This document shows positions 4,501-62,596 of a DNA stretch of 64,000 nucleotides, piece after piece. The position numbers were made by a program, and so were the translations under genes. The notes under the pieces are model-generated. The model was not told the DNA's origin and did not search any database. It saw nothing but the letters and a program-made list of their open reading frames with translations. How positions within the stretch are numbered: position 1 is the stretch's first letter; each line of letters starts with the position of its first letter. The stretch spans positions 83,445-147,444 of the forward strand of contig JARWMV010000039.1 of the NCBI GenBank assembly GCA_030998015.1, read 5' to 3'. This stretch comes from Ceratorhiza oryzae-sativae. Lineage: Eukaryota > Basidiomycota > Agaricomycetes > Cantharellales > Ceratobasidiaceae.

Positions 4501-5931
4501 ACACTGACTTACTAAACCCATGCAGCACGTGATGTGCTTTTTGCGAAATCATCGCTGGTCAGCGGTACGGTGGGTTTCAGCGTGCGGTGTGTTAAAAGAT
4601 GTAGTATTTCATGTGGCTACCTTTTTGCGAAATTTGAGATAATTTGGATCAGAGGCCGACGAGTGAGAGACGAATTGGTCACCATCTGTGCTGCAAGACT
4701 TTTGGAAATTGAGAATGTTATGAAGTCAAGCCCCGGACAACACACGAATACCAGCACGTACCTGGCCAATTTCGGTCAAACAAAGTGCGCATAAGTAAAT
4801 AGTAGGATATTTAGCATACCATCGCGCCGTTTGGTAGCCGCTTTATAGGAAGATATGCACGCATATAGGTGATTAGGAGATAGGTACATTTCCCCCTATT
4901 TCAGCTTTCCTACTCACAAAGGAGGTGGATACAGTGGTGATTTTGAGCTTATAGTACTACTTAGGTATACTAGAGCCTATTAGAGTGTAAACACCGAAGT
5001 ACTTCAAGTAGATATACACTAGATCCATATACCGCATAACACCCCCTGAGCTTGGAACACTAAAGTCATCAGCCATACTGATTATAATTGGCTTAATGTG
5101 AGTGTTATGTATGCTCTGTATGTCTATAAAGACTATAGACCACGCCTGAGACCCCTGGTTTCCCAGAGTGTAAGTTATAGACTATGCTTTGGCTTTTTGG
5201 CACTTCCTGATACTCAAATCCTTGGTAAGGTGTATGCACAGTCTGTAACTTACACTCTGGGAAACCAGGGGTCTCAGGCGTGGTCTATTGTCTTTATAGA
5301 CATACAGAGCATACATAACACTCACATCACATTAAGCCAATTATAATCAGTATGGCTGATGACTTTAGTGTTCCAAGCTCAGGGGGTGTTATGCAGTATA
5401 TGGATCTAGTGTATATCTACTTGAAGTACTTCGGTGTTTACACTCTAATAGGCTCTAGTATACCTAAGTAGTACTATAAGCTCAAAATCACCACTGTATC
5501 CACCTCCTTTGTGAGTAGGAAAGCTGAAATAGGGGGAAATGTACCTATCTCCTAATCACCTATATGCGTGCATATCTTCCTATAAAGCGGCTACCAAACG
5601 GCGCGATGGTATGCTAAATATCCTACTATTTACTTATGCGCACTTTGTTTGACCGAAATTGGCCAGGTACGTGCTGGTATTCGTGTGTTGTCCGGGGCTT
5701 GACTTCATAACATTCTCAATTTCCAAAAGTCTTGCAGCACAGATGGTGACCAATTCGTCTCTCACTCGTCGGCCTCTGATCCAAATTATCTCAAATTTCG
5801 TAAAAAGGTAGCCACATGTAAATAATACATCTTTTAATAATACACCGCACGCTGAAACCCACCGTACCGCTGACCAGCGATGATTTCGCAAAAAGCACAT
5901 CACGTGCTGCATGAGTTTAGTAAGCCAGTGT
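4501..5931. repeat. foldback element: ~700-bp near-identical inverted repeat with a ~40-nt loop
   Basis: The left arm (about 4502-5192) and the right arm (about 5234-5930) are reverse complements with only a few substitutions and small indels. The outer ends both read CACTG(A/G)CTTACTAAAC when read inward. The centre pairs CCCAGAGTGTAAGTTA with its complement on the two sides of a loop at about 5193-5233. Because the arms mirror each other, the same 86-codon frame appears once on each strand (4534-4794 plus; 5634-5893 minus). No transposase or other recognisable domain is present, and no convincing target duplication was found. It is best described as a MITE or foldback-type repeat, or an inverted duplication. 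Confidence 0.85.
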
Positions 5932-6520
5932 ATGCGCCGTACAGATCGGTCGGGTGAACAACATGTGCGGGCTTGGAGTCGGACCCGAATATCTATGAAG
6001 TCTGTGACGACCACAGTATGTCCTATTTGAGCTGTGGCGAAAGCTAGTTGATAAATCAAATAAGTCTTGGGGCCGGACTTTTATCTGAGGACACGTTTTT
6101 GGATGCGGCGATTGTGGTGGCATGGAATATTCCGAGGGACACACGTTTTGACATAATTTGAATGCTGAGTATTCAAGACGAGCCTTCGAGTAGGACACAC
6201 CGCATTAGCTAATCGCCCTTGAAATCTGTCATTCGGCTCCAAAGCTGTGAGCAACTCTTACTGTCCAACCAGCGATCAGATATGTGCGCAGGCTACACTT
6301 CCGTATGTTGCCATCCATATTTCACAGGCGATGTGGCAAAGCCGAGATGTCAACACGTGGACTAAGGGCAGTGGTACAGGCTGTCTTGGAACGGGTAGAT
6401 CAAGGTTTAGGGCAGGGGGTACCCAAGTACACAGGCCGGGCCCAAACCCGCTTGAAACAAGTTTATAGAGTGCGACCTGTGAGTACCTAACGGCAGCTCG
6501 GCTTGGGCATCTCCTCCACC
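5932..6520. other. intergenic, promoter side of the next gene
   Basis: No recognisable coding sequence. Short frames at 6247-6490 overlap each other in different frames and look random. The stretch presumably holds the promoter and leader of the gene starting at 6521. Confidence 0.45.
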
Positions 6521-58207: not shown

Positions 58208-58861
58208 GAAGGGTCGCTCAATGATGATTTATGCTCTCTATACCTCAGGTTTTTGTTGGTGCCGATTGCGGATCATATATATGCACTCCCCAGCTTGACA
58301 TTTTGTAGTTTATAGTTCATTATTAGTTTTTGGTTCCATTTTGATTCGTGCTTGGGGTGTTCGTTCTGCGTGTGGCTGGTGTACTATAGACTCCGTGACG
58401 CATACAATTGATGATTGTGGAACACATGCCCCACCGTTCTCCAAGCCTAGGCTGACCAATTAGCAACCTCGCAGCAAACCGTTTGCGACCGATTGCAAGG
58501 ACCGTGCAACGTAATTCGTGAGTTATCTCGACGTGATTTGGAATTCATCGGCTCCGTACCAACCCTTGCACTGTTTTGCCCATGTGATATAATTCACGGT
58601 TCTGGTGTGGTCGGACCGAGCCGATGCGAATTGGTTCCTGGTCCCCTCTTATTTGTTTCCTACTCGATCACCCTGTACAAGGCGTTTTGGTGGTTTATGC
58701 AGCATACGATCGATCCCTCCGATTAAATGCTATCGATGGTAAATATCTCGGCTCCAAGGTGGACCTTTCAAATCCGGCGGGTGGCAACGTGTTGTCACGT
58801 GCATCACATTCGGCTGATTGAAACTACGACGACACGATATCACAACCACATCGTAAACACA
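58208..58861. other. intergenic
   Basis: Spacer between the coiled-coil gene and the kinase gene. No coding sequence recognised; presumably holds the kinase promoter. The start at 58862 has a good context (CACAATGG). Confidence 0.4.
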
Positions 58862-61800
58862 ATGGATTGGAACAAGTTTTATTTTGGACGATTTGTGGTG
58901 ATTTTTGGCTCATCCTCATGCTTCTGGCTGTATGGTTGACTGATTGATATTGTATAGGAGGTAAGAAGGCTGCCCAGACAGCTGCCCCACTACTCGCAAT
59001 GCTTTTCTCCATAGGGGCATGAATCGGTAAAAGGAAACGTATGTATTCTATCCGCTTAACGGCTATTTATGCGCTTTGATAGACTTGTAACATTACTCCA
59101 GCGCAATATTCGACCTATCCTTGGAGAATGGGTGCGTCGCATGTCTCCCACTGCACATGTGGCTATCTTTTCAAATTAACATCACATGACTTTAGCTTGT
59201 GAGCTGCCCTAGCTCACTCGACTCGCGACCTGTTTGACATATGTATGGTTGTTTTTGATGGCTTTCAGGTCGTGAGTACTTGGAGATCCTTGATCCTCAT
59301 AGCAAATACCATCTGTGAATTTAGGATGTACGTGGGAGCCATTCGTCATATTTATCTTGACTAACGTTACGTACGAAAGAGGGTACGTGTTCTAGCCGGC
59401 TTGATCATGCCCGTTCCCAACAGTCCATCGGTGACATCTGTAGCGTGTGAGTGTCATTTGTTTCCTTGGCCGGCGACGTGTTCAAATACTTTTTGTATAG
59501 CCGGTAGGTATTGTGAATGGTTCTGGTCTGTTTGTCTACTCAAACGGCAGGGTGTACGGCTTGTTATTCTATAGAAAGTAAGTGGCCCTTGGGTGCGCTG
59601 AATCTTATCGAAATCCCATGGCTTACTTTGTTTTAGGGCGTAAGTCGACCCACTGTTGGACAGGCCCTTAATCTGACGCTGCTGACCCCTTGATGGATAC
59701 GATAGACAGTATGTGTTGTCCCATAGTTCTTCTTACATTTCGCTCAAGGGACATGTCCCGCTTTTTTACAGATGGTAAGTACACTCGCTGTTGGAGGCAT
59801 ACAAGCATCTCATGAAGGATTTCTGCCATCATTAGCTCGTGAGTATCTGGTTCCTTGTGAGCTCTTGAAACACCCTGCTTATATGCAATGTCATTCCAAC
59901 AGTGGGTAAGTAATTTTTGTTGCCTGTCTATTCATGACTAAACGAAAACACTGTGTACAGGATGTGAGTCGCTTTGGTCTTTTCTAACAATTAACTCGCT
60001 CAATCGATGGAGGTTCCAGGATGTGAGTGGTTCGATGCTCGCTTACCGAGTTGGATTTAAGTCTTGTCATATAGAAAGTAAGGGAATTTATGGGCGACCC
60101 GAATGAGCGCTGATAAAAAGCGCTCTTCGTGTTCTCAGCGTGTAAGCGGCCAAGTTGCCCTGTTTTCTCATCTGACGAATCGTTCTAGGATGTAAGCCGG
60201 TATTCTATCGACTCCTCGAGCTCTTACGTTCAATTTGTTGCTTCAACCTAGCTTGTATGTGAATTGCCCTCATTTTTAGATTTATTTGTCGATGACAGGC
60301 GCTAGTTTGTGAGCTACCTTTGGATTAACGGACCCGTAGTGCTGAAGTAGGATTAATCATATCACACATGCGGTAGTTCGTAAGTCAGCTTCGAACTTCC
60401 TGCTGTGCTATTGATTTACCTGGCAATTCGCCGATAGTTTGTAAGTCTGTTTGGCTTTTAAGTAAGATTAAAAATGACAATTGACGTTGTGCCGACTCGC
60501 AGAAGGTGATACTATTTGCGCGCAATGATTGATTGTGGGACTGACGGATTCGACCTTACAATCCGATGCCCTCATTCAGCAAGTAAGCAGAATTTCTAGA
60601 AATTATGTCCAGAGTGACTGGAACTTACCTTTTCATTTCGTAGGATGTATGTTTGGATATAGCCTGGCCATGCTCAATCGCTTACCATAGCCGATACCAT
60701 AAAATAATCTATATATAGCTTGTGAGGCCTCCCCGATTCTTCTCGAATTGGTTGATTGATTTTTTTCTAGGACGTAAGTTGCCAAACCCCTACAGCGTCT
60801 AAGCCACGGCTGAGCTTTATCTTAACTAGTCGGTAAGCCTACTTACCATCGGTGCGTAGGCGGCTGGCTGAGGATGCCGGCTCCTCACATATATAGTCCG
60901 TGAGTAACCCGAAAAAATAGTGGTGCTGATTTGAAGTGCATGATTGCCACGTTAATATATGCAGGAAGTGAGTACGATTTATTAAATTGATTATATGCGC
61001 TATATACACGTACTCGAATAGATGGTACGTCTTATTGCGGTGAGAATGATCCCATACTTTGACTGTGCAAATAACCCCTAGGAGGTAAGCCTATCATTGC
61101 AGCATATACTCGGAAATCCTAATGCTGCGAAATTTTGCAGGTGGGTCAGAGCCAGTACACCATCCGATCATTAGCCAAACTCTTTTCTAGGATGTAAGTT
61201 CCATCGTTCGTTCCTTCTATATTGGGCATATATTCATGGCGCTGTCAGTTTCTTCGCACGCACCCGGTCTATCGCAAGCCAATCCATATTCCATCGAATC
61301 TCGTAAGAACTCGAGTTTTTCCTAGTACTGACTGACTACATTTGCACAGGCTGTTTCCGACATGGTGGCCTACTTGACTAAGCACGCCGGTATTGCTGAC
61401 CTCACAGCTGAATTGACGAAGTGGCAGACTCCTGACTACCCAACTGCCACGGGCGGGCAAGGCAATATCTATCTTGGGACCAAGCCAGGAGGTAGCTTGT
61501 TTGCTATAAAATGCATCACCCAGGCCGATGAGAAATATGCCAAAGTAGCTAGACCAGTGTTTTTGTTGCAAGTTACTCAACTTCCATTTCTAGCATACTG
61601 CTCGGGAATTAAGCACTTGGGCCAAGCTTAAACACCCAAATGTTTTGGAGCTATCCGGACTGGCGATGTTTCGCGGTCGGCTAGCAATGGTATCTCCGTG
61701 GATGGAAGGTGGCAGCGTCAAGGCTGTTTTGAAGAACAATCCTTCGATGGATCCTTATGCTATGGTAAGGGTTACAGTGTATTCCACTTGCGATTTTGAT

Positions 61801-62596
61801 TCATTCTTCGCAGTGCGAACAGCTTGTTGCAGTAATCAGTTATTTGCACCATCGGAATGTGGTACGTACAATGATTTTAAATATTAAGCTAGACCGCTCT
61901 TACCTTGGGTGATCAGATTCACGGAGATATAAAAGGAGTAAGTGTTGGCCTTGCTTCTAGTGTTCGATTGAAGACGACTTAGCTATGGCAGGACAATCTG
62001 CTCATGGGCCCTGATGGTAACCTCAAGTTGACCGACTTTGGACTCACTGTTATGCACGACAAAACTTTGCAATTCAGTGAAACCGATCCGGCTGGCGGCA
62101 CATTCCGCTGGATGGAACGTGTTGTTTACTCTTTGTTATTTTTGAGACTAACCGGTTATCCATACAGGCCCCAGAGTTATATCTCGAAGGAGCTGAGATC
62201 TCGAAAGAGGGAGATATGTATGCGGTTGGCATGGTAGGTACCTCTGTTCGGAATTTACTTCTAATGATTCTTGTTGTTCAATTTATTGACTCATTGTGCA
62301 GACCATGCTCGTAAGAAAGAGTTTAACAGCGGGGCCAATGATGTACTAATCTTTCCTAGGAAATAATCACGGGCGACATTCCGTTCCGCGAGATTCGGTC
62401 TACCATAGCTGTCATTAAAGCCGTCAGTGAAGAGAAACTGACCCCCAATATTTCGGAACTGGAAAAGAAGCCCGTCTCCCCTCGGGCATACGTTATGATT
62501 GCCGCTATGCATCGTTGCTGGCGAACTGACCCGAAGGAACGAGCGACTGCAGAGGAGATCGGTAACCTGGTATGGTCGGACCTACTCTTCCCATGA
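58862..62596 (+). CDS. TKL-type protein kinase with a micro-exon-array N-terminus
   Basis: The kinase part is secure. Exons 61350-61544, 61594-61764, 61814-61861, 61917-61937, 61992-62114, 62168-62233, 62302-62310 and 62360-62596 encode a full domain. It has Gly loop GGQGNIYLG, FAIKCI (Lys), catalytic HGDIKGDN (HRD with Arg replaced by Gly), DFGLTV, RWM|APELYLEGAEISKEGD and a C-lobe ending at TGA 62594-62596. Upstream I propose 58862-58894, GAG at 58958, 59015-59038, 59102-59131, then 32 exons of one codon each (59196-61193), then 61249-61302. Every exon length is a multiple of three; the total is about 369 aa. The domain resembles expanded basidiomycete TKL kinases. The intron at 62115 would need a GA donor. 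Confidence 0.8.
58958..61193 (+). other. array of ~33 three-nucleotide exons
   Basis: Between 58958 and 61193 the pattern YAG|NNN|GTRNGN recurs every 50-75 bases. One-codon exons start at 58958, 59196, 59269, 59325, 59380, 59444, 59501, 59575, 59637, 59706, 59772, 59836, 59903, 59961, 60020, 60075, 60139, 60189, 60252, 60306, 60377, 60438, 60503, 60580, 60644, 60719, 60771, 60830, 60897, 60965, 61022, 61082 and 61191. A further candidate GGT at 59551 would leave only a 21-nt intron after it. The introns are not similar to one another beyond splice signals. Most have a CTRAY-like branch site before the acceptor. None of the codons is a stop, and the assembled peptide is well mixed in composition (for example TMLWDDKRDLFFFKQ). 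Confidence 0.75.

Follow-up and report, generated by a model that had tools for sequence, protein, structure and literature searches.

A run of one-codon exon units upstream of a kinase domain

We analysed a 64,000-nucleotide stretch of the basidiomycete Ceratorhiza oryzae-sativae (assembly GCA_030998015.1, contig JARWMV010000039.1, positions 83,445 to 147,444 of the forward strand; hereafter the window, whose own numbering is used below), in which a predicted kinase gene on the + strand appears to begin with a long run of exons of one codon each. In the proposed model, whose exons were read from the sequence and in which a micro-exon is an acceptor-NNN-donor unit, exons of 33, 3, 24 and 30 nt are followed by 32 micro-exons and then by exons of 54, 195, 171, 48, 21 and 123 nt. 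From the ATG at 58862 to the 123-nt kinase exon, which starts at 61992, every intron is phase 0. The proposed first coding exon (58862..58894, 33 nt, with the weak donor GTGGTG) precedes a micro-exon GAG (E; 58958..58960), a 24-nt exon encoding GHESVKGN (59015..59038) and a 30-nt exon encoding RNIRPILGEW (59102..59131).

The clustered micro-exons then read CTT (59196..59198), GTC (59269..59271), GAT (59325..59327), AGG (59380..59382), CGT (59444..59446), CCG (59501..59503), AAA (59575..59577), GGC (59637..59639), ACA (59706..59708), ATG (59772..59774), CTC (59836..59838), TGG (59903..59905), GAT (59961..59963), GAT (60020..60022), AAA (60075..60077), CGT (60139..60141), GAT (60189..60191), CTT (60252..60254), TTT (60306..60308), TTC (60377..60379), TTT (60438..60440), AAG (60503..60505), CAA (60580..60582), GAT (60644..60646), CTT (60719..60721), GAC (60771..60773), TCG (60830..60832), TCC (60897..60899), GAA (60965..60967), ATG (61022..61024), GAG (61082..61084) and, last, GAT (61191..61193). 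The linker predicted from this array is LVDRRPKGTMLWDDKRDLFFFKQDLDSSEMED, and the array is followed by a 54-nt exon encoding FLRTHPVYRKPIHIPSNL (61249..61302).

We counted the strict unit pattern [CT]AG-N3-GTRNG on both strands of the window. It occurs 32 times in 58801-61400 of the + strand, compared with 18 times in the remaining 61.4 kb of that strand and seven times over the whole 64 kb of the − strand. When the exon length was set to 0, 1, 2, 4, 5, 6, 7, 8, 9, 10, 11 or 12 nt instead, the same interval gave 1, 1, 0, 0, 0, 0, 3, 0, 0, 1, 0 and 0 matches. Likewise, 500 shuffles of 58958-61193, made with a purpose-written script that keeps dinucleotide content approximately, had a mean of 0.5 strict matches and a maximum of 4, whereas the real sequence has 30. 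The curated set comprises 33 units in 58958-61193, one at 58958 and 32 across 59196-61191, and includes two that are not strict, at 59380 (AAG acceptor) and 60503 (weak donor GTGATA). A strict match with GGT at 59551 is probably not used in splicing, because just 21 nt lie between its end and the AAA unit at 59575. Donors conform to GTRNG in 32 of the 33 units and to GTRAG in 25, and the acceptors are 23 TAG, 9 CAG and 1 AAG. None of the 33 codons is a stop. The 31 intervals between the clustered units measure 47-74 nt, except for one of 106 nt (mean 61 nt with this one included), whose length is explained by a zero-length unit, TTGCAG/GTGGGT, inside it: here, at 61140/61141, a CAG acceptor directly abuts a donor.

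The array of one-codon units in the window is thereby confirmed as an observation, and the first-pass annotation, made from the letters of the window, had been right to describe about 33 such units in a kinase gene, with strong donors and YAG acceptors, phase 0 throughout and no stop codon, and to call a chance origin very unlikely. Other parts of its description need amending. Its intron lengths of 47-74 nt apply to the array introns but not to the 106-nt interval; its statement that every micro-exon is one codon fits the 33 window units but neither the zero-length unit nor a GAGGAG exon in one further copy of the locus (below); its single continuous array comprises 32 units, as the unit at 58958 is set apart by the ordinary exons of 24 and 30 nt; and branch sites that are 'mostly' CTRAY-like was a generous wording, YTRAY being present in 17 of 30 window introns. 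A visible tandem repeat is ruled out, since Tandem Repeats Finder reported no array in the micro-exon region and the introns are related to one another no more than shuffles are.

The exon layout recurs in a paralogue

Four copies of a related gene also carry arrays upstream of a kinase: L041 on contig C251, L042 and L043 on C12, and L044 on C47. The kinase part of this paralogue is 51% identical to that of the window gene (104/205). In L041, exons of 45, 3 (GAA), 24 (EHDEIKGR) and 30 nt (SEIRGEIGRW) precede an array modelled as 33 one-codon units and a 54-nt exon, all in phase 0, and each has its counterpart in the window model. At the nucleotide level, window and L041 share only two short matches, both inside kinase exons, and pairwise comparison of six array introns from the two showed no greater likeness than shuffles.

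Despite these diverged introns, the 3' ends of the two arrays encode similar strings: the window reads S-E-M-E-[0]-D where L041 reads A-E-I-E-[0]-A, both glutamates and the zero-length unit being at matching places (61140..61141 in the window, with donor GTGGGC in its copies L003 and L004; 6667 in L041; 6323 in L043). Compared with shuffled window units, the match has p 1e-5 over the last 6 units and 0.0004-0.0016 over the last 4, 8, 10 or 12, or 0.0004-0.006 for residues only, with zero units dropped; p is given as a range because the number of units was not preset. The scan for zero-length units covered L041, with sites at 6171 and 6667, and L043, with sites at 5827 and 6323. Further AG/GT sites (two in L041, three in L043) were left out because they overlap codon units or follow AAG, and the L041 string test took only the two sites clear of codon units. 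Residues held in common between introns that cannot be aligned are what would be expected if the micro-exons are translated.

Among the four paralogue copies, the splice sites of single-copy units differ by 0.7-2.6% and their introns by 3.0-6.2%, the value for splice sites being the lower in each of the six pairs. For one AAG unit, at L042 4376, L042 alone has a proper acceptor (CACCAG; CACCCG in L041 and L043, CACCGG in L044), so that single units are gained or lost.

Hypervariable codons between near-identical introns

The middle of the paralogue arrays is made of 68-bp tandem units, each a 65-nt intron plus one codon. Located through 15 bases at the intron end that had to match exactly, they number 17 in L041, 15 in L042, 10 in L043 and 27 in L044 (69 in total), and 63 of the 65 unit-to-unit steps are 68 bp, the other two being 136 and 237 bp. 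Eleven codons fill the 69 units, with no stop: GAT 18 times, TGG 13, GCT 12, ATT 9, CGG 6, CTG 5, ACT 2, and CAT, CGT, CGA and TTT once each. The four repeat arrays encode DWIWARAARWAARLARD, HRDRWIIWRDAWIIW, WFLIDDIDRD and DDAIDDILDDLWWTAAATADDWDWDWL.

Diversity was calculated from the 62 of 69 units with a regular following intron, the 7 dropped being array ends and irregular units. Among these 62, 49 introns are identical. Pairwise diversity per site is 0.650 in the exon and 0.0094 in the intron, or 0.0122 once the 15 bases of the search match are excluded, a 53- to 70-fold contrast, and no other column of the 68 is as diverse as the three of the exon. At least 10 changes are needed to explain the 3 exon sites (by hand, from the 11 codons), versus at least 16 for the 65 intron sites (p 8e-8).

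Sharing of codon 3-mers and 4-mers between paralogue copies showed no excess over shuffles, so that block shuffling of codon strings between copies is unsupported. Flanking sequences (left/right) are 98.5%/95.4% identical between L041 and L043, and 97.0%/96.9% between L042 and L044. On the right, L043 is nearer to L042 and L044 (97%) than to L041. As the right flanks thus group L043 with L042 and L044, the former lying on the same contig, and the left flanks group it with L041, there is a hint of exchange running through the paralogue array. A DNA search of the genome with five units, in which few candidates were scored and very common words were skipped, returned 24 matches, all in the four paralogue loci. 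Near-identical introns at several positions of one gene characterize the paralogue arrays and not the window array.

Two units are irregular. In L044 (3340-3577), one unit is 169 bp longer. The extra sequence, which by eye has inverted ends (ACTCGGCCAAAA...) and comes with a duplication of TA inside the donor, resembles a mariner-type miniature inverted-repeat transposable element. In L042 (5230-5366), the order of TGG and the acceptor CAG is swapped (ATGT-TGG-CAG/GTGAGT), giving a zero-length exon while the length is still 2 x 68.

Near-identical copies of the window locus

In the assembly searched (48.8 Mb, 253 contigs), the array region of the window is present four times (L001-L004) at 99-100% identity, and the 3.9 kb upstream likewise. 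Since array and upstream sequence are both four-fold at near identity, the copies would be either haplotypes or recent duplicates. None of the 33 micro-exons carries a base substitution among them. In copy L004 (contig C15), the GAG at 58958 is doubled to GAGGAG, a two-codon exon and an in-frame gain of one codon; this is the sole 3-nt indel among the aligned copies, the intron indels in or before the array being of 1 or 2 nt. Within 59132-61248 there are 21 variable places among the four copies, and 0 of 21 fall in micro-exon-plus-splice zones, which cover 18% of the array bases (P 0.015); a hand-merged list of variable places gives 0 of 20 (P 0.018). The window array looks conserved, and the paralogue repeats look hypervariable.

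Kinase domain and annotated homologues

Downstream of the 54-nt exon, which has counterparts in L041 and in a matching stretch of the annotated protein P0001, the model places kinase exons, supported by Pfam, at 61350..61544, 61594..61764, 61814..61861 and 61917..61937 (with HGDIKG), followed by an exon from DFG to GGTFRWM (61992..62114), one starting APEL (62168..62233), one of 9 nt (62302..62310) and one at 62360..62569. The end of the 123-nt exon at 62114 was set from the sequence and agrees with L041. Spliced to RWM, the window model matches PF00069 (E 3e-25) and PF07714 (E 5e-20), and the L041 model, taken to AMGM, matches PF00069 (E 5e-30). Pfam gave only kinase-type families, and no NACHT or ankyrin domain, in these two models. 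We take the kinase to be of the TKL type; this label comes from the first-pass annotation and from general knowledge, and Pfam does not separate TKL.

The motifs AIK, HGDIKGDN and DFG are present in the window kinase, but APE lies across a donor that is not GT: after GGTFRWM, positions 62115-62120 read GAACGT, identically in all four copies L001-L004. At the matching site L041 has GTGGGT, and APE is then in frame. The array leads in frame into a kinase, as had been claimed, but into one that is not cleanly intact. Two products of Ceratobasidium sp. AG-Ba (P0001 and P0002) likewise have RWME here, so that the odd site may be old; other products, P0004 to P0006 among them, read RWMAPEL. Splicing may use a non-GT donor at 62115 or a weak donor nearby; otherwise the window gene would be losing its function.

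In a protein search, the model of the spliced window gene had 46 hits, 41 of them from Ceratobasidium sp. or Rhizoctonia solani, the best being 73% identical over 77% of the query (Ceratobasidium sp. AG-Ba). The 21 of 46 hits whose sequences were read start near or after the 54-nt exon, except that P0012, P0024 and P0026 have unrelated N-terminal sequence. Three products (P0008, P0018 and P0044) are intronless kinases whose contigs are about 1 kb long and may come from metatranscriptomes. P0008 (342 aa, 1054-base contig) may be a transcript; its ...SFSLTQ-E-FFRLHP before the kinase resembles a read-through intron, and we did not count it as evidence.

Interpretation of the array

The core of the first-pass reading, namely that a kinase gene contains consecutive phase-0 exons of one codon each, is supported, because the paralogue shares both layout and 3' codon string with the window gene despite diverged introns and because variation in the paralogue is concentrated in the 3-nt exons. 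We consider it probable that a TKL-type kinase gene here contains a true series of 32 phase-0 exons of one codon each, with one more upstream and a zero-length unit, and that the paralogue repeats diversify at the scale of codons. From sequence comparison, we infer splicing, splice order, selection and function of the array with differing confidence. That the micro-exons are real and spliced is highly likely in our judgement, and that they are translated as one contiguous peptide is only a little less so; the spliced array would then form a linker of about 32 residues that joins a short N-terminal part to the kinase.

Introns of about 60 nt would be recognized by intron definition. On a 3-nt exon, the factors for the acceptor and for the next donor would overlap, and as they cannot occupy both sides together, removal would most likely be ordered. 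Each splice would add one codon to the upstream exon and rebuild or expose the donor for the next step, and the zero-length unit would serve as a ratchet-type recursive site, a scheme that zero-length units at a matching place in both lineages fit. We moderately favour such ordered or recursive removal. Because each unit is one phase-0 codon, skipping, gain, loss or unequal exchange of units would keep the frame. In the paralogue, near-identical introns may supply the homology for unequal exchange or conversion while diversifying selection keeps the codons varied; this combination of selection and intron-driven exchange has, we think, slightly better than even prospects. The window gene would be an old array, now fixed. 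The likeliest use is a role in recognition, of self and nonself or of biotic partners, though its odds fall somewhat short of even. More tentative still is the idea of a germline codon-at-a-time diversifier, in which one-codon exons within recombinationally homogenized introns, possibly with a dedicated mutational or exchange mechanism, and ordered splicing yield a hypervariable peptide before a signalling kinase.

Several observations weigh against parts of this picture. By itself, the absence of stops is weak evidence, as about 1.5 would be expected per 32 random codons. The window introns lack mutual shared ancestry (mean score 4.07, versus 3.92 +/- 0.11 in shuffles), so that a tandem-duplication origin of the window array is drawn from the paralogues only. 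Counting the zero-length unit with the protected zones brings the tally of variable places to 1 of 21 (at donor position +6) and P to 0.08. The 5' codon strings of window and L041 do not match (p 0.2-0.5), and block duplication of codon strings within paralogue copies is unsupported (p 0.13 and 0.10). Single-copy paralogue micro-exons vary about like introns and not clearly faster, at 2-5 of 51 sites per pair. No annotated protein with the N-terminal part and the array was found among 33 candidates, none of which matched at E up to 10. Finally, the GAACGT donor at 62115 may leave room for a decaying window gene.

The alternative that survives best, although we regard it as unlikely, is codon-targeted hypermutation in the paralogue arrays, in which the 3-nt exon changes some 50-70 times faster than the introns and recombination is not the driver. 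The codon sites are near saturation (0.65 per site, against 0.009-0.012 in the introns), with at least 10 changes in 3 codon sites beside 16 in 65 intron sites; within each of the two pairs whose left flanks are most alike (L041/L043 and L042/L044), no codon 3-mer is common to both members, although their flanks differ by only 1.5-4.6%; and the TGG/CAG swap in L042 looks like a whole codon written in the wrong register. Such a process would, however, have to be confined to the repeats, as the window micro-exons are unchanged in four copies bar the doubled 58958 and the single-copy paralogue micro-exons are not clearly faster than their introns. No machinery was identified, and none was sought.

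Introner-like spread, with one mobile intron inserted repeatedly into an old coding stretch and the codon variety reflecting ancestral sequence, would account for near-identical 65-nt introns beside unrelated codons, but we give it little credence: random insertion would yield many exon lengths rather than the almost invariant 68-bp step, and insertion into a common coding sequence does not explain why unit number and codon order differ among the copies. The five-unit search, which skips very common words, matched the four paralogue loci only. Equally improbable in our view is an untranslated array, be it a relic or a stretch that regulates splicing (as a slow timer or a poison region, for example), with the protein starting at or after 61249. 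The N-termini of the homologues and the odd donor at 62115 are in its favour, yet such annotated starts are also expected from a gene finder unable to model 3-nt exons, and the N-terminal exon layout common to the paralogue, the 3' codon string common across diverged introns and the concentration of paralogue repeat variation in the codon all speak for translation. Chance splice-like motifs or a low-complexity artefact have nothing in their favour and can be dismissed, being contradicted by the shuffles, the other exon lengths and the other strand, with no array reported by Tandem Repeats Finder.

Relation to known systems

One-codon exon arrays have a precedent in truffles. Iotti et al. 2012 reportedly described, in Tuber melanosporum, a NACHT-ANK (nank) superfamily with dozens of 3-bp mini-exons. 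Judged from partial texts of the papers cited in this section, truffle NACHT-ANK genes have codon-sized, alternatively spliced mini-exons (PMC9815663, PMC4986451, PMC3689799), as do the sensor domains of truffle NOD-like receptors (NLRs; PMC10197012). The gene described here resembles them in its tens of codon-sized exons, and the truffle region is thought to vary for recognition. In contrast to the truffle genes, which encode ascomycete NLRs with a C-terminal recognition region, the array here lies N-terminal to a TKL-type kinase of a basidiomycete; it also has a zero-length unit common to paralogues. The paralogue adds hypervariable codons in near-identical introns, which the truffle arrays might also show.

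Recursive splicing at zero-nucleotide exons, or ratchet points, is known from Drosophila (PMC8605326). The AG/GT juxtapositions at 61140/61141 and in L041 and L043, known here from the sequence, are similar; unlike the Drosophila sites in long introns, they lie at intervals of about 50-60 nt and alternate with one-codon exons. Microexons of plants, 1-15 nt long (PMC8831610), are likewise very short and missed by annotation but occur singly or as an adjacent pair, whereas here more than 30 are consecutive and all are of 3 nt. In fungi, Dactylellina lipS genes have two 3-nt exons (PMC5639578), and functional microexons in filamentous fungi are said to have been previously undescribed (PMC11121469).

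The present array also recalls other repeat systems in part. Schistosoma micro-exon genes contain many symmetrical micro-exons whose skipping keeps the frame, as skipping of any unit would here; unlike the present units, theirs are longer, mostly 6-36 nt, and their products are secreted. Fungal WD40/HNWD and TAL-effector repeats show concerted evolution with few hypervariable positions. In contrast to those repeats, the constant scaffold here is an intron, which would be spliced out, and the variable residues would become adjacent. Among the literature matches listed, seen as titles and abstract openings and with subscription journals mostly outside, there was no report of a one-codon exon array in a basidiomycete or a kinase and no description of variable codons set in constant introns. 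New here, then, are the basidiomycete kinase, the hypervariable codons in homogenized introns and the shared zero-nucleotide unit.

If this interpretation is true, spliceosomes can build a peptide one codon at a time out of more than 30 successive 3-nt exons, and ordered splicing on minimal exons becomes directly testable. The paralogue arrays would invert the usual pattern to an extreme degree, with constant introns and varying coding sequence, and would offer a natural route to a frame-safe hypervariable peptide. As gene finders and short-read aligners handle 3-nt exons badly, variable fungal receptors or kinases of this kind may be missing from annotations.

Related kinase regions elsewhere in the genome

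A search of the genome for these kinases gave at least 134 exon matches (150 of 197 candidates scored). Seventeen other kinase regions (L017-L025, L027-L031, L033, L072 and L073) have no chain of more than two strict units, which rules out arrays as a general trait of these kinases. Some of the 17 are probably copies of one another; the flank covered was about 1.5 kb for six of them and 3.6-3.8 kb on the upstream side for L072 and L073, and longer cuts (L035-L040 and L069-L071) cover nine (L017-L022, L025, L029 and L031). L069-L073 have no more than two strict units per strand read. With the exon region that follows the array as query, 11 matches were obtained: all eight copies with an array, and three others in which the stretches read hold none. 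In L072 (C233:2405500-2409300), a WD40-like coding sequence, identified by eye, lies directly upstream of a related kinase that has no micro-exon array. A search for NACHT genes returned 42 matches.

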